Assembly: GCA_028284745.1 (NCBI GenBank)
Contig: JANQRC010000043.1
Span: forward strand, 1 to 64,000
Direction: 5' to 3'
Length of the DNA stretch: 64,000 nt
From: Flavobacteriaceae bacterium
GTDB lineage: Bacteria; Bacteroidota; Bacteroidia; Flavobacteriales; Flavobacteriaceae
Below, piece after piece: positions 7,803 through 58,470 of the stretch. Below the pieces are notes generated by a model. That model made no database searches. It was not told the DNA's origin and worked only from the letters and a program-made list of their open reading frames with translations. Made by a program: the position numbers and the translations under genes. How positions within the stretch are numbered: the stretch's first letter is position 1; every line of letters starts with the position of its first letter.

Positions 7803-8197
7803 GGGGTCGACTGGTTTTGACAGCGAGTCGAATTGAAGTGTAAGCACGTCGAGCCATGATGCTAATGCTCGTTAATCACTGTATCACACCTTTAAATGGC
7901 GAGAATAACTACGCTCTTGCTGCCTAATTAGACCGAATCATAGTAGGTCTTGGCCTAGCTCCGCGAGGCGGAGAAGCGAGATGTCTCTTGAAAGCCCTTG
8001 TTGATGGCGTTCTGCGAAGAGGCACCATAAAGATCAACACGAAAACTGTGGAGCTTCGACACAGTTTTTATCAAAGAAGCTAAGTTGGCAATAGGCGGTT
8101 CTGGGTCAGTTGCCAATCGAAAACCAAACTAGGACTACGCGTGTAGAAAGCATTTGAATTGCTTGTTTGGACGCGGGTTCGAATCCCGCCGACTCCA
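7803..8197 (+). ncRNA. ssrA: Transfer-messenger RNA (tmRNA)
   Basis: The 5' end GGGGTCG pairs with CGACTCC at 8190-8196 to make the tRNA-like acceptor stem, and a T-arm with GGGTTCGAATCCC lies at 8175-8187. The tag frame GGC GAG AAT AAC TAC GCT CTT GCT GCC TAA at 7898-7927 encodes GENNYALAA, the type expected in Flavobacteriia. With SmpB it rescues stalled ribosomes and marks their products for proteolysis. The discriminator A (8197) is followed by CGA, so CCA must be added enzymatically. The length of 395 nt is normal. Confidence 0.95.
7898..7927 (+). other. tmRNA tag reading frame (GENNYALAA)
   Basis: This is the messenger part of ssrA. Translation resumes at GGC (7898) and ends at TAA (7925-7927). 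The ALAA end is the usual degradation signal. Confidence 0.9.
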
Positions 8198-8198
8198 C
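8182..8198 (+). repeat. ssrA 3' end, proximal copy of 17-bp direct repeat
   Basis: AATCCCGCCGACTCCAC forms the 3' half of the T-arm and acceptor stem. The same 17 bases recur at 8339-8355. tmRNA 3' ends are known integration sites for tyrosine-recombinase elements. Confidence 0.75.
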
Positions 8199-8232
8199 GA
8201 TCAAGCGTAATTTCTTTACGGCTTGAAATAGG

Positions 8233-8410: not shown

Positions 8411-8991
8411 GTATTTGTGAGCAATGTGTTTTGACAATCTCAAGGATCGACATTTTGATTTTCACATACGGAAAGAAACCATGAGCCTCGGTCAGGATGC
8501 TCATCTTTTGCTTATGCTACTGATAAGCGACCATCAAAACGATCCATTGTTCAAAGGCATCGGCTTACCACGCTGCCCCATTCTTGACCGATGGGCAGAA
8601 CATCTCGGGCACTTGACCTTTGCCATGCCCCATAGCGACCCACGTTGGGGAAATCATTCCCTTGCTTTATGGGCTTTCCGAATACTTCTCGCTCCTCAAT
8701 ACGTCAAGGAACCTTGAAGATCAAATCCACTAATACCTTACAGGGGTTTGATTTTCAGTTGCATAAGTGTCGTCACAAGTCTATGCCCTAATTTGACCCA
8801 TTACCGTAGGCAGGTTTCAGGTTTTCAGTATAAAACGTCAGTATTTATAGGTGTTCTGAGATGCTGAAATGGGTTCAGCATGACACCAAAAAATAACGTC
8901 ATGATATAAAGCACACAAAAATAAAGTAATATAATTTTTTTATGAAACAACTATTTACTTACTTTGATTAGAAATTAAAACTTTATATTCT
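8411..8991. other. Gene-poor accessory stretch
   Basis: No gene can be supported here. A 97-codon frame at 8424-8717 has no recognisable family and composition unlike the nearby genes. An AATGACA-like palindrome (ATGCTGAA/TTCAGCAT, 8861-8881) lies within it. From about 8885 the sequence becomes markedly AT-rich and stays so through the two paralogous surface-protein genes, which suggests a different origin. Confidence 0.5.
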
Positions 8992-15967: not shown

Positions 15968-17203
15968 TCAAGCAAACTTTATGGACTTTACCGGCGTGAT
16001 CCTAGAGATGATGTAGGAAGGGACCAACAGCATCAACAAGCAAAGTAACAAGGTGCCGATATTTAGTAGAACGACGTATCCTGCTGAGACATACACAGGT
16101 GCTTGGGTAACGTAGTAGGTAGCAGGGTCGAGCGAAATGATGCCATAGGTCTTCTGAAGCCAGAGCAGACCTATACCGATCACATTGCCCCAAAATAGCC
16201 CGACCAGGATCAGGTAAGCCGCATTGTACAAGAATATCTTTTGGATGCTGGCATTCTCACTGCCCATGGCCTTGAGCATGCCGATCATCTGCGTTTTTTC
16301 GAGGATCAGCACCAACAGTGCTGTGACCATATTGATCCCCCCGACAATGATCATGATAACTATAATGATCGCCACATTGATATCAAAGAGTTTCATCCAC
16401 TCAAAGATATGATCGTACTTGTCTACGATAGTATATGAATTGAGCAATGGAGGAATCTCGACATACACTTGCTCGCCTACTTCTTGAATTTTGTCAAAAT
16501 CTTTCAAAAATACTTCAAAGCTGCCTACTTGGTCTTTTTCCCACTTGTTCATACGCCGCACTTGGCGAATGTCGCCAATGACATAAGTCTCATCAAATTC
16601 CTTGAAGCCTGAATCGTAAATGCCAACGATGGTGAGCTTCAACTCGTTGGGCAACTTGTTAGGGTCTTCCTTCGGAAAGAAGGCGCTTACGCGATCACCC
16701 ACACCAATAAGCAATCGATTGGCCATGTAGGCAGACATGAGCACTTCTCCGTTCATCTGTTGGGTATAGTTAGGCAATCGGCCTTCTAGAAGATACTCTC
16801 CAAAATAATCCCATCGGTATTCACTGCCAACACCTTTGTAGATGATGCCCTCAAAAGTGGTCTCGGTACGAATAATGCCTCCTTTACTGGCAATAGTCTG
16901 AATATGGTCTACTTCCTCTATAGCACCAAACTCAGGATAAAAATCTTGGTCGTCACTAATGGGATTGATGGAAACCTCTGAATTGTTGTTGTCGTAGGTA
17001 GATATAAGAATATGGCCATTGAAAGCAGAGACCTTTTCTCTGATCTTCTGCTGAAGTCCTACGCTTGAAGAAATGGCAATCATCATCATCACCAGTCCGA
17101 TAGCAATGGCAGCAATGGCAATTTTGATGATCGGTGACGAAATGCTACTTTTATACGATCTGCCCGCAATAATGCGTTTGGCTATAAAGAATTCGTAATT
17201 CAA
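15968..17203 (-). CDS. FtsX/LolE-type ABC transporter permease
   Basis: The protein has the MacB/LolE layout: an N-terminal membrane helix (about residues 18-45 from the chosen start), a large periplasmic domain, and three C-terminal helices. LolE-type proteins, with an ATPase encoded elsewhere, release lipoproteins from the inner membrane; other FtsX-like roles are possible. The longest frame starts at TTG 17233, but a TATATTTG promoter box covers that codon. The TTG at 17203 (LNYEFFIAKR, matching the usual start of flavobacterial homologues) is therefore preferred. That choice also removes the overlap with the divergent gene at 17208. Confidence 0.85.
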   Translation of the reverse strand: MNYEFFIAKRIIAGRSYKSSISSPIIKIAIAAIAIGLVMMMIAISSSVGLQQKIREKVSAFNGHILISTYDNNNSEVSINPISDDQDFYPEFGAIEEVDHIQTIASKGGIIRTETTFEGIIYKGVGSEYRWDYFGEYLLEGRLPNYTQQMNGEVLMSAYMANRLLIGVGDRVSAFFPKEDPNKLPNELKLTIVGIYDSGFKEFDETYVIGDIRQVRRMNKWEKDQVGSFEVFLKDFDKIQEVGEQVYVEIPPLLNSYTIVDKYDHIFEWMKLFDINVAIIIVIMIIVGGINMVTALLVLILEKTQMIGMLKAMGSENASIQKIFLYNAAYLILVGLFWGNVIGIGLLWLQKTYGIISLDPATYYVTQAPVYVSAGYVVLLNIGTLLLCLLMLLVPSYIISRITPVKSIKFA

Positions 17204-17207
17204 CGTA

Positions 17208-18491
17208 ATGCTATTGAAATTGTTGCTGCTCAAATATACCGCTTTCCTGCTTTTGGTCCCGATGGCTATCGGGATACCGTTATCCTGTGCAAGTCAGGCC
17301 AAGGAAGAAACGAAAGATTCCTCGACTCCGCTCGGAATGACAGAAGAATTGAATGATAAGAATCTGAAAATTGCTGCGAACCGCATAGAAGCCTATTTAC
17401 CTCTTCTAGAAGGAAAGAGAGTTGCCATAGTAGCCAATCAGACCAGTGTGATCTTTCATGATCGAACAGGCTCCCTCTCACTTGGGGAGAGGGCGACCCA
17501 CTTAGTTGATTCATTGCTAAGCTTGGGTATAAATGTAAAAAAGGTATTCGCGCCAGAACACGGGTTTCGCGGGAATGCAGATGCTGGTGAACATATAGCG
17601 GACGGCACAGATACCAAGACCGGGCTTCCATTGCTTTCACTGCACGGAAAAAATCGAAAACCCACCCAAGAGCAAATAGAAGGCATTGATCTGGTGATCT
17701 TCGACATTCAAGATGTGGGTGCCCGCTTTTACACCTACATCTCTACCTTGCACTATGTGATGGAAGCTTGTGCTGAAGCTGACATTCCTGCGATGGTCTT
17801 GGATCGTCCCAATCCTAACGGACATTACGTGGATGGTCCGATCCTGGAATCAGAATTCAAGAGTTTCTTGGGCATGCATCCCATTCCTATTGTGCATGGT
17901 ATGACCATTGCCGAATATGCACAGATGATCAACGGAGAAGGCTGGCTGAAAGATGGCCTGCAATGCGAGTTGATGGTAATCCCCATGAAGAACTACACGC
18001 ATGAGACCCCATACAGCTTGCCTATCAAGCCTTCGCCCAACTTGCCCAACGATGTGGCCATCAACCTATATCCCAGTATTTGTTTTTTCGAGCAGACACC
18101 TGCAAGCTTGGGGCGTGGTACAGACATGCAGTTTCAGGTGTTAGGCGTTCCCTATGGCGCGGACTTGTATGGTTTTAGTTTTACACCACGACCCAATGAA
18201 GGCTCGAAATATCCCAAGCATGAGAATGTGACCGTTTGGGGTCTCGACCTGAGAAATTCAGAGAGATTGTCTGAGATCAAGCTTGATTGGCTCATCGACT
18301 TCTACAAACAGCATCAAGAATATGGAGACAGGAAACCTTTCTTCTGGAAATACTTTTATCGACTTGCGGGAACGAAGAAACTAGAAGAGCAAATCAAGGC
18401 AGGCATGACCACAGAACAGATCAAGGCCACTTGGCAAGAAGACCTAAAGAAATTCAAAAAGACAAGAGCCACCTATTTACTATATCCTTAA
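17208..18491 (+). CDS. DUF1343/NamZ-type exo-beta-N-acetylmuramidase, lipoprotein
   Basis: The 427-residue protein has a signal peptide ending in PLSC (lipobox, about Cys27). The DUF1343 domain follows, with VAIVANQTS, KVFAPEHGFRG, DIQDVGARFYTYI and NLPNDVAINLYPS. The characterised member, B. subtilis NamZ (GH171), removes terminal N-acetylmuramic acid from peptidoglycan fragments, so a periplasmic role in wall recycling is inferred. Three palindromic repeats of intergenic type lie inside the first 290 bases and are translated, one of them within the signal peptide. It is followed 9 bases later by a DUF2721 gene. Confidence 0.87.
   Translation: MLLKLLLLKYTAFLLLVPMAIGIPLSCASQAKEETKDSSTPLGMTEELNDKNLKIAANRIEAYLPLLEGKRVAIVANQTSVIFHDRTGSLSLGERATHLVDSLLSLGINVKKVFAPEHGFRGNADAGEHIADGTDTKTGLPLLSLHGKNRKPTQEQIEGIDLVIFDIQDVGARFYTYISTLHYVMEACAEADIPAMVLDRPNPNGHYVDGPILESEFKSFLGMHPIPIVHGMTIAEYAQMINGEGWLKDGLQCELMVIPMKNYTHETPYSLPIKPSPNLPNDVAINLYPSICFFEQTPASLGRGTDMQFQVLGVPYGADLYGFSFTPRPNEGSKYPKHENVTVWGLDLRNSERLSEIKLDWLIDFYKQHQEYGDRKPFFWKYFYRLAGTKKLEEQIKAGMTTEQIKATWQEDLKKFKKTRATYLLYP
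17231..17238 (-). promoter_or_regulatory. Promoter -7 box of the FtsX-like gene, inside the NamZ-like gene
   Basis: The minus strand reads TATATTTG, matching TAnnTTTG. It lies 27 bases before the preferred start at 17203 and within the signal-peptide codons of the divergent gene. Confidence 0.45.
17257..17494. repeat. Three palindromic repeats inside a coding sequence
   Basis: The first, TCCCGATGGCTATCGGGA at 17257-17274, encodes part of the signal peptide. The second at 17315-17342 is AGATTCC to GGAATGACA, the type seen between genes here, and encodes DSSTPLGMT. The third at 17471-17494 pairs CCCTCTC with GAGAGGG and encodes GSLSLGER, where homologues run straight from TSV to THLVD. All three keep the reading frame. 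Confidence 0.7.
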
Positions 18492-20349: not shown

Positions 20350-20440
20350 TCATTCCTGCGTCTGCGTGTCGCCCAGCTTTAGCGGAGGCGCAAGGCAGGA
20401 ATCCAAAAGTAATAGATTCCGCATCAAGTGCGGAATGACA
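20350..20440. repeat. Two AATGACA-type palindromic repeats between divergent genes
   Basis: ATTCCTGC pairs with GCAGGAAT (20352-20402), and ATTCCGCA pairs with TGCGGAAT (20416-20436). Each is flanked by the TGACA end typical of this family, in opposite orientations. They fill most of the 111-base promoter region. Confidence 0.75.
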
Positions 20441-21167: not shown

Positions 21168-21195
21168 GAGGTTTCTCGACTGCGCTCGAAATGAC
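21168..21195. repeat. AATGACA-type palindromic repeat
   Basis: AGGTTTCTCGACTGCGCTCG followed by AAATGACA is a dispersed Bacteroidetes-type repeat. The TCGA arms can pair. It lies four bases after the methyltransferase gene and may act as its terminator. Confidence 0.65.
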
Positions 21196-21287
21196 ATAGG
21201 CTTTAGTTGGGCATGTATACGCGTTCTTTTAAAGCATTGGTCATGGGCTGCTACCCACACTTGCGAGATCTCGCCTACCATAATTGG

Positions 21288-54872: not shown

Positions 54873-57800
54873 TTACATATTCCTCCTGTACTGGCCTCCT
54901 ACCTCGAACAATGCCTTAGTGATCTGTCCCAATGAGCATACCTTGGTGGCCCGCATGAGCTCATCGAATATGTTTTGATTTTGGATGGCTGCTTGTTGCA
55001 CGGCCTTCAGTGCATCGCTAGAAGCAGTGGCCTGTGCTTTGTGAAGACCTTCAAGCGTTTGTATCTGGTGCTCTTTCTCTTCTTCTGTGGCACGAATTAC
55101 CTCAGCAGGAATGATCGTAGGCGAGCCTTTGCTACTCAAAAAAGTGTTCACCCCGATGATGGGATATTCGCCCGTGTGTTTCAACGTCTCGTAATGAAGG
55201 CTCTCTTCTTGGATCTTGCTGCGCTGATACATGGTCTCCATAGCCCCGAGCACACCACCACGTTCGGTAATGCGATCAAACTCTAGCAATACGGCTTCTT
55301 CCACAAGGTCAGTCAGTTCTTCAATAATGAAAGAACCTTGTAGCGGATTCTCGTTCTTGGCCAATCCCAACTCTTTATTGATGATCAACTGAATGGCCAT
55401 CGCACGACGCACCGACTCTTCTGTAGGTGTGGTGATCGCTTCGTCATACGCATTGGTATGCAGCGAGTTACAATTATCATAGATCGCATACAAGGCTTGT
55501 AATGTGGTACGAATGTCATTGAAGTCGATCTCTTGTGCATGTAGCGAACGCCCTGAGGTCTGAATATGATACTTCAGCATTTGCGCCCGAGGGTTGGCGC
55601 CATACTTGTGCTTCAACGCCTTGGCCCAAATTCTTCTCGCCACACGACCGATCACTGCATATTCGGGGTCGATCCCATTGCTGAAGAAAAATGACAGATT
55701 GGGCCCAAACTTATCGATATCCATACCACGGCTCAAGTAGTATTCTACGTAAGTAAATCCGTTGGCCAGTGTGAAGGCCAGTTGTGTGATAGGGTTGGCC
55801 CCGGCCTCGGCGATATGATATCCTGAGATAGAGACTGAATAAAAGTTACGAATCTTCTGGTCAATGAAGTACGCCTGTACATCGCCCATCAATCGCAAGG
55901 CGAACTCTGTGGAAAAGATACAGGTGTTCTGCGCCTGGTCTTCCTTCAAGATATCAGCTTGCACTGTGCCTCGTACCTGAGAAAGCGTCTCCGACCTGAT
56001 CCTTTGATATATTTTCTCTGGAAGGACTTGGTCGCCCGTGATGCCCAACAGCATCAGACCGAGTCCATCATTTCCTTCTGGCAATTCTCCGTGATATTTC
56101 GGCCGTTGAAGTCCTTTGTCATCATAGACCTCTTTCAACTTATCGGCTACGTCACCCTCCAGACCGTGTTGCTTGATATACAGCTCGCACTGCTGGTCGA
56201 TGGCCGCATTCATAAAAAAGCCCAACAACATCGGTGCCGGTCCATTGATCGTCATGCTCACCGAGGTCATCGCATCTACCAAGTTGAAACCTGAGTATAA
56301 TTTCTTGGCATCGTCCAAACAACAAATAGAAACACCTGCATTACCGATCTTCCCGTAAATGTCCGGACGATAGCCTGGGTCGTTCCCGTACAAAGTAACA
56401 CTATCAAAAGCGGTGGACAGACGCTTAGCGGGCATGTCTAGACTCACATAGTGGAAACGCCTGTTGGTGCGTTCTGGACCACCCTCACCAGCAAACATTC
56501 GTGTTGGGTCTTCACCAGTTCTCTTAAAGGGGTACAATCCTGACGTATACGGGAATTCGCCTGGCACATTCTCTTGCAACACCCATTGTAAAATGTCGCC
56601 CCAAGCTTCGAACTTGGGTAGGGCCACTTTAGGAATATCGCTGTGCGACAAGGATCTGGTATGTGTCTCGATCTTGACCTCCTTGTCTCTAACCTTAAAA
56701 CTGTAGACAGGCTCTCGATACCGATCGACTTTTTCTTTCCAATTGACGATCACCTCCCAATTGTAGGGGTCCAAGTTCATTTTCACCTTATTGAACTCTG
56801 CAATGAGCATCTCGACCAATTTGTCATCGTCATTCTGAACTTGTTTCAGAATCTCCTCTTCGTTTAATCCAGATTCGTTAGACAAAGACCTCTCGATCGC
56901 GTTCGAGGTGACATTCAAAACAGTACATAGTGTCTTATGGATACCGTACAGTTTTTGGGCCACCTCAGCTTGTTCAGCAGCTTTTTTATCGTACATACGA
57001 TTGTTCTCAGCAATCTCAGACAGGTAGCGTGTACGGGCAGGCGGAATCACAAAGACCTTCTCTGACATTTCCTTAGAGATCTGGAAAGTAGATCTTATGT
57101 CCGCATCGGTCTTTTCCACCACCTTGTCCATAATGGCCTTGTAGAGCGTATTCATGCCCGGGTCATTGAATTGTGAGGCGATGGTACCAAACACTGGCAA
57201 CTCATCTTGTGGTGTATCCCAAAGGTTGTGATTGCGCATGTACTGCTTTTTCACATCACGCAAAGCATCCAAGGCGCCACGTTTGTCGAATTTGTTGATG
57301 GCCACCAGATCGGCAAAATCTAGCATGTCTATCTTTTCGAGCTGGGTGGCTGCACCAAACTCTGGTGTCATCACATATAATGACACATCACTATGGTCTA
57401 AGATCTCGGTGTCTGATTGGCCGATCCCTGAAGTTTCCAAGATGATAAGGTCGTATTCGGCAGCTTTCAGCACTTCAATGGCCTCGCTTACGTACTTGGA
57501 CAATGCCAGGTTGCTTTGCCGTGTAGCCAAGCTGCGCATGTAGACTCTCGGATTGTTGATCGCATTCATGCGGATACGGTCGCCTAGGAGCGCACCTCCG
57601 GTCTTTCTTTTGGAAGGGTCTACGGAGACCAGTCCGATCGTCTTCTTAGGAAAATCGATAAGGAAGCGACGCACCAGTTCGTCTACTAACGATGACTTTC
57701 CTGCGCCACCGGTACCTGTGATACCTAGCACTGGGATGTTTGCCTTTTCGTTTTTCTGGTGAATGGCATCCAACGTCTCTTTCGCAACTTCAGGAAAGTT

Positions 57801-58322
57801 CTCTGCGGAAGAGATCACGCGAGCGATCGCTCTCGGGTCCTTCTTAGTGAGCAGGTCTGCCTCCCCATTGAGTTGTTCGCCAATTGGAAAATCGGCCCTC
57901 TGCACCAAATCATTGATCATGCCCTGCAAGCCCATTTCACGACCATCATCGGGCGAGTAGATACGCGTAATGCCATAGCCCATAAGGCTTTTGATCTCTT
58001 CAGGGAGGATCACACCTCCTCCTCCTCCAAATATCTTGATGTGCCCGGCACCTTTCTCTTGAAGCAGATCGTACATGTATTTGAAATACTCGTTATGGCC
58101 ACCTTGATAAGAGGTCATCGCTATGGCATTGGCATCTTCCTGGATGGCGGTATTGACCACTTCCTCTACGCTGCGATCGTGCCCAAGGTGAATCACCTCT
58201 ACCCCTGTGGCCTGGATGATCCTGCGCATGATATTTATGGCCGCATCATGGCCGTCGAAAAGCGAAGCTGCGGTGACGATTCTTACTTTGTTCTTAGGTT
58301 GATACGGTCTGATCTGCTCCAT
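54873..58322 (-). CDS. icmF: Fused isobutyryl-CoA mutase (IcmF)
   Basis: The 1149-residue protein combines three parts in the IcmF order. The B12-binding domain has cobalt ligand His25 in [10 protein letters not shown]. The MeaB-like G-protein chaperone has the P-loop GTGGAGKSS near residues 205-213 and [16 protein letters not shown]. The mutase TIM barrel has [20 protein letters not shown]. It interconverts isobutyryl-CoA and n-butyryl-CoA, or related acyl-CoAs, with adenosylcobalamin. An in-frame palindromic repeat ([10 protein letters not shown]) lies near residues 490-500, between the G-protein and mutase parts. The ATG at 58322 is preferred over TTG 58328. Confidence 0.94.
56829..56853. 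repeat. Palindromic repeat inside icmF
   Basis: ATTCTGAA (56832-56839), CTTGT, TTCAGAAT (56845-56852), flanked by GTC and CTC. It is the CTGAA/TTCAG repeat type seen between genes. On the coding strand it is translated as EILKQVQND in frame. Confidence 0.75.
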
Positions 58323-58470
58323 CTTCAAAAAGAGGTCGGTTTTCTAGCTGCAATTTACGGAATATTCAAAAATTAGCAGATATTTTCAGAAATGTTTAAA
58401 ACTTCTTTATACACTTCACAACACTTGGTTTTTCTACTAATTTAGTTCAATTGACCAATAAAAGCTACAG

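Follow-up and report, generated by a model that had tools for sequence, protein, structure and literature searches.

Short dispersed palindromes of at least three families occur in the spacers of Flavobacteriaceae genomes and, with a probability of roughly 85 %, also land within genes, and a single NamZ-like gene harbours three of them (A, B and C) within its first 290 nt. This gene lies in the window, i.e. the whole 64,000-nt stretch of DNA that was analysed, which belongs to contig 32 of a 2.82-Mb draft genome in 73 contigs (G000); copy numbers given for this genome refer to the named patterns searched only (pattern searches plus flanking loci). The preliminary description had reported three different palindromes at these coordinates, all in frame, the first of them in the signal peptide, and both the positions and the three translations were reproduced. 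The relevant features are as follows.

17208–18491, plus strand: NamZ-like (DUF1343) exo-beta-N-acetylmuramidase, a predicted lipoprotein of 427 aa (ORF, Pfam, PDB match)
17208–17285, plus strand: lipoprotein signal peptide of NamZ (alignment, 110 homologues)
17286–17288, plus strand: lipobox Cys codon of NamZ (alignment, 110 homologues)
17257–17274, plus strand: palindrome A, TCCCGATGGCTATCGGGA, translated VPMAIGI in the hydrophobic core of the signal peptide (repeat counts, alignment, folding)
17316–17342, plus strand: element B, GATTCCTCGACTCCGCTCGGAATGACA, a minus-strand REP of the CGTC type, read as DSSTPLGMT in the linker that follows the lipobox (repeat counts, alignment)
17471–17493, plus strand: palindrome C, CTCCCTCTCACTTGGGGAGAGGG, encoding GSLSLGER within a surface loop, at about residues 88–95 (pattern, alignment, folding, AlphaFold)

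The host ORF displays the NamZ_N/NamZ_C arrangement (PF07075, E 1.9e-80; PF20732, E 1.5e-28) and resembles the solved structures PDB 4jja (1.7e-111) and 4k05, with the conserved columns of the family retained and the enzyme body intact. It was compared with 110 homologues, the closest of which share 61–64 % identity, with none deriving from the same genus. The lipobox possesses a Pro at −3 (IPLSC), where relatives have L/I/V/M-x-S-C. In the AlphaFold model (mean pLDDT 82) confidence is high except for residues 1–49, residues 88–93 and a loop at 123–132; the first two stretches fall below a pLDDT of 50, and it is to these that all three translated palindromes map, as signal-peptide core (A), post-lipobox linker (B) and surface loop (C). 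The start of the gene nearly overlaps that of a divergent LolE/FtsX-like gene (15968–17233, minus strand; overlap region at window 17203–17233), and the signal-peptide codons of many relatives show striking DNA similarity across genera (AAAAATACAGTTTTATTATTTGT).

At ≤3 mismatches, each of A, B and C is found in the window at its own place only, with 0–0.02 occurrences expected in shuffles. Across the genome none is single, copies being located both inside and outside genes: A (family sequence TCCCGATNGCNATCGGGA / TCCCGATNGCTATCGGGA) occupies 15 sites at ≤2 mismatches (reversed-pattern control 0), B occupies 5 at ≤3 mismatches (control 0), and hairpins of the C class, CCCTCTC-N2-10-GAGAGGG, occupy 9 including that in NamZ (control 0), with the exact C sequence giving a single genome match at ≤3 mismatches. 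A and C fold as hairpins better than most shuffles (z −2.4 and −1.6, respectively); the interrupted stem of B folds weakly and no better than shuffles (z +0.5), such that B is recognised as a repeat and not by hairpin strength.

Alignment of the homologues lends itself to different conclusions for the three segments. The KYT..SC span of the signal peptide comprises 19 residues here and 14 in 73 of the 110 homologues, the surplus of about 5 residues being those encoded by A. The linker holding B, at 28 residues, is not longer than in relatives, and ranges so widely among the 110 (8–62) that its length proves nothing, but other genera harbour other palindromic elements at this position, partly in another frame. 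For C, relatives had been described as apparently having no insert; the loop is indeed long at 17 residues against a mode of 9–10, but loops of 5–32 residues exist among the 110 homologues. As B's linker is not extended and C's loop is of variable length, the case for insertion of these two draws on repeat identity, and for NamZ as a whole it is repeat identity together with distant homologues that points to probable insertion.

The strongest proof of insertion comes from Mrp, a highly conserved P-loop ATPase in which, judged by sequence comparison, A is a clean in-frame insertion. Here 21 nt (GTCCCGATGGCTAGCGGGATT) stand in place of 6 nt, a net gain of 15 that preserves the frame, whilst 29 of 29 relatives, with up to 84 % overall identity, have two codons (GAGTTG or equivalent) at the site. 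The earlier suggestion of a likeness to elements that spread inside genes without breaking them finds its best support outside NamZ. When 120 genomes representing different genera of the family were searched for exact A-type palindromes, 32 proved positive, the richest giving 56 matches (control 0). The distinct A copies examined in other genera number 79; ORFs of ≥150 aa contain 5 of them and the other 74 fall elsewhere, as is expected if most gene insertions get removed. Those within ORFs affect DnaX, the receiver domain of a hybrid kinase, a CusA-like pump and adenine deaminase, all in frame; the fifth match, at residue 12 of a GTG ORF (L305), may be upstream of the real start codon. N-terminal copies at L015 and L135 were left out of the count, being probably upstream of true start codons. 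A hybrid histidine kinase from another genus has A in its receiver domain (L317 1483–1500), where the encoded VPIAIGI is followed directly by the phospho-acceptor motif, DFVLTDIQMP. In G000 contig 20 (L005 1500–1538), A and C are adjacent and supply the residues directly ahead of the stop in a membrane-protein ORF of 338 aa, at its 3′ end.

A further element, D, lies in the same window, as do related hairpins of the CGTC type and a copy of B.

56830–56852, minus strand: element D, ATTCTGAAACAAGTTCAGAATGA, a CGTC-type REP, translated EILKQVQND inside an IcmF-like fused mutase gene at 54873–58328, minus strand (pattern search, translation)
8861–8881, plus strand: CGTC-type hairpin, ATGCTGAAATGGGTTCAGCAT-GAC (pattern search)
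20416–20436, plus strand: CGTC-type hairpin, ATTCCGCATCAAGTGCGGAAT-GAC (pattern search)
21172–21196, plus strand: B-type element, TTTCTCGACTGCGCTCGAAATGACA, an intergenic comparison copy outside long ORFs (pattern search)

CGTC REPs are defined by an unpaired CGTC, TGTC or CCTC tag beside a stem that starts with AT, the stem being 8–9 bp and the loop 4–5 nt in length (PMC3733652). Element D, with the sequence ATTCTGAAACAAGTTCAGAAT followed by GA and the layout GTC-ATTCTGAA-CTTGT-TTCAGAAT-C, forms a stem of 8 bp and a loop of 5, an exact match to these dimensions, and B has the architecture TGTC-ATTCC...GGAAT-C on the minus strand. D is found at 9 genome sites at ≤3 mismatches (control at most 1). 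At its site in the IcmF-like gene, decayed forms are visible in three relatives (L241, L243, L245) and other sequence in further relatives, and the linker that holds D is wholly missing from order-level relatives, so that this site too is variable in length. A B-type copy translated in HemW of the same genome occupies a length-variable site and is weak support for insertion, as the site already varies in 3 of 29 relatives.

The NamZ gene displays comparable elements in other genera. A or decayed A occurs in the signal peptide at L102, L103 and L056; the Marixanthotalea example (L102) reads TTCCCGATAGCCATCGGGAT, and NamZ genes of the Psychroserpens, Algibacter and Gelidibacter type harbour decayed A (TTCCCGATAATTATAGGAT, CCCAATAATTATTGGG) coding for FPIIIG. 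In the linker, perfect D-type elements with 8-bp stems (ATCCTGAATCAAGTTCAGGAT and similar, translated E-I-L-N-Q-V-Q-D-D) are present in L052, L063, L065, L071 and L073, and a B-like element, ACTTCGACTGCGCTCAG, appears in two Winogradskyella (L075, L088) in the frame of B. Because the B-type and D-type elements of the linker use different frames, more than one insertion has taken place there. CGTC-like hairpins were also counted automatically across the 110 NamZ genes, but this count was dropped, since a conserved coding motif (HPIPVVHGMTIGEY) mimics the pattern; for CGTC-like elements in relatives, only linker matches checked by eye were used.

Structural RNA genes of the same genome are likewise affected.

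L011 1305–1649, G000 contig 64: RNase P RNA, in which the P3 loop holds a D-type element, P12 an A element and the 3′ region a second element of D type (three in all)
L009 1433–1571, minus strand, G000 contig 48: SAM riboswitch, the P3 and P4 regions of which contain hairpins of the A and D types

In RNase P RNA, the A element forms a clean insertion in P12 that is missing from 16 of the 17 relatives compared, the same position being filled only in L324, which belongs to another genus (G108). The D-type element of P3 is specific to this genome, and that of the 3′ region is also found in L160, L164 and L324. A tree of the RNase P core places this genome and L324 in separate clades, the other members of which are without A; with the two carriers so separated, a double insertion is likelier than many losses, and two independent A insertions at P12 are thus the likely history. 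The SAM riboswitch measures 139 nt against a 108-position model, and the literature searched yielded no previous description of a riboswitch containing dispersed repeats. The tmRNA (window 7803–8200) carries a 44-nt insert relative to Rfam with a CTCCGC/GCGGAG hairpin; this has no link to any family described here and is not claimed. The positions in NamZ, IcmF and RNase P are, on aligned sequences, occupied by A-, B- or D-type elements in other Flavobacteriaceae as well, some seemingly by independent insertion.

These findings would be accommodated if the elements had spread by copying, with most insertions into genes removed by selection and in-frame copies in structurally tolerant segments escaping the purge to become translated. 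The resulting peptide segments would have a near-neutral effect on the proteins concerned. In NamZ, each of three tolerant segments, the signal-peptide core, a disordered linker and a surface loop, would have taken up one element; in RNase P RNA and the SAM riboswitch, entry may have been into hairpin loops or peripheral regions, where a hairpin would merely lengthen a stem or add one. The genome contains no Y1/RAYT transposase (PF01797), the profile of which finds matches in 5 control genomes, and no target-site duplication was seen at the elements, so that their mobility is something we infer only. A bolder proposal, which we regard as possible but doubtful, is that several unrelated families of 18–27 bp insert repeatedly and independently at the same gene positions across free-living Flavobacteriaceae through a targeted, transposase-independent form of copying. 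This would favour, for example, existing hairpin loops or single-stranded stretches and, if true, would continually supply new peptide segments and RNA helices.

It is improbable that the NamZ hairpins are kept, beyond tolerance, for gene regulation, be it by an effect on mRNA stability, on the rate of translation near the start or through premature termination. That three elements cluster so near the start codon (within 290 nt) would suit such a role, as would the recurrent use of the NamZ linker in other genera and the terminator-like context (hairpin and T-run) of some intergenic A copies (L002, L012). However, the family, frame and position of the elements vary between genera and many are decayed, B hardly folds, and the insertions of Mrp and IcmF are deep in coding regions, distant from start codons. 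Somewhat less probable still is an origin in place, whereby template switching at imperfect inverted repeats (quasipalindrome correction) would create palindromes that are alike only by composition. This would fit the shortness of the elements, the uniqueness of C at ≤3 mismatches, the failure to find a transposase and the exchange in Mrp of 6 nt for 21, which is no simple insertion; yet such correction perfects local sequence and does not yield one sequence at unrelated loci, and the same sequences of 18–25 nt exist at many unrelated sites of this genome and of other genera, with controls at zero. An ancestral origin of the residues, with codon choice having produced the palindromic DNA by chance, is scarcely credible, for although linker and loop vary among relatives, some being of similar length, the shuffled-window expectation is 0–0.02 per element, the recurrence of the elements in the genome contradicts it, and the signal peptide and Mrp are clearly longer than in relatives.

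Dispersal of short palindromes, with occasional tolerance of in-frame copies, remains the preferred reading, and the interpretation offered in the preliminary description is, overall, supported; no description of coding palindromes in Flavobacteriaceae was found in the open-licence literature searched. The loci constitute natural experiments, in the form of a near-invariant Mrp loop with a five-residue insert, two additional hairpins in a riboswitch and three in an RNase P RNA. They also serve as a warning that translated repeats may account for short lineage-specific segments in the proteins of flavobacteria. The spread of CGTC-type REPs, for which no transposase is known, is directly testable through strain comparison.

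Among known systems, the Rickettsia palindromic elements (RPEs), reportedly the subject of work by Ogata in 2000 and 2002, and the Wolbachia palindromic elements are similarly dispersed palindromes that occupy intergenic regions and, in frame, solvent-exposed segments of unrelated conserved genes. Shared with RPEs is the in-frame presence in unrelated protein genes and absence from orthologues, as seen for Mrp, along with insertion into structural RNA genes, which in Rickettsia concerns RNase P RNA and tmRNA (PMC2229807, PMC3767692) and here RNase P RNA and also the SAM riboswitch. The ATGAC motif common to RPE-4, RPE-6 and RPE-7 (PMC3767692) recurs in B and D, and RPE-4 and RPE-6 belong to the CGTC REP superfamily (PMC3733652). 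The likeness to Rickettsia that had been proposed therefore extends to the REP architecture and ATGAC motif of B and D, and not to A and C, which match neither and are unrelated to RPEs. At 18–27 bp, against the 100–150 bp quoted for RPEs, and with only the short ATGAC motif of B and D shared with them, the elements are not filed as RPEs; moreover, their host is no obligate intracellular alphaproteobacterium, and several unrelated families occur in one gene.

With regard to CGTC REPs, B and D possess the TGTC tag and the AT-starting stem and are dispersed in several copies (5 and 9, respectively), whilst A and C are without the tag. The superfamily has no known dedicated transposase (PMC3733652, Di Nocera and colleagues 2013), with which the absence of a Y1/RAYT gene here is consistent. 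It has been reported in Bacteroidetes, with G. forsetii among the CGTC-positive species, and intragenic copies are recorded in other phyla (PMC3733652); in the main text of that paper none is named for Bacteroidetes, and RNase P and riboswitches go unmentioned. GTAG REPs, associated with RAYT, are also short palindromes, mostly intergenic and in some cases within genes, but A–D are without the GTAG tag and the genome is without Y1_Tnp (PF01797). The coding palindromes of nematomorph mitochondria (PMC6649704) are comparable as inverted repeats in coding sequence with function kept, and differ in being long, perfect, gene-specific and situated in conserved regions, and not dispersed repeats. Precedents are thus found in Rickettsia, Wolbachia and REP-rich genomes, and what is new is the host group, the presence of three families in one gene, the reuse of the same sites across genera, the untagged A and C elements and the invasion of a riboswitch.
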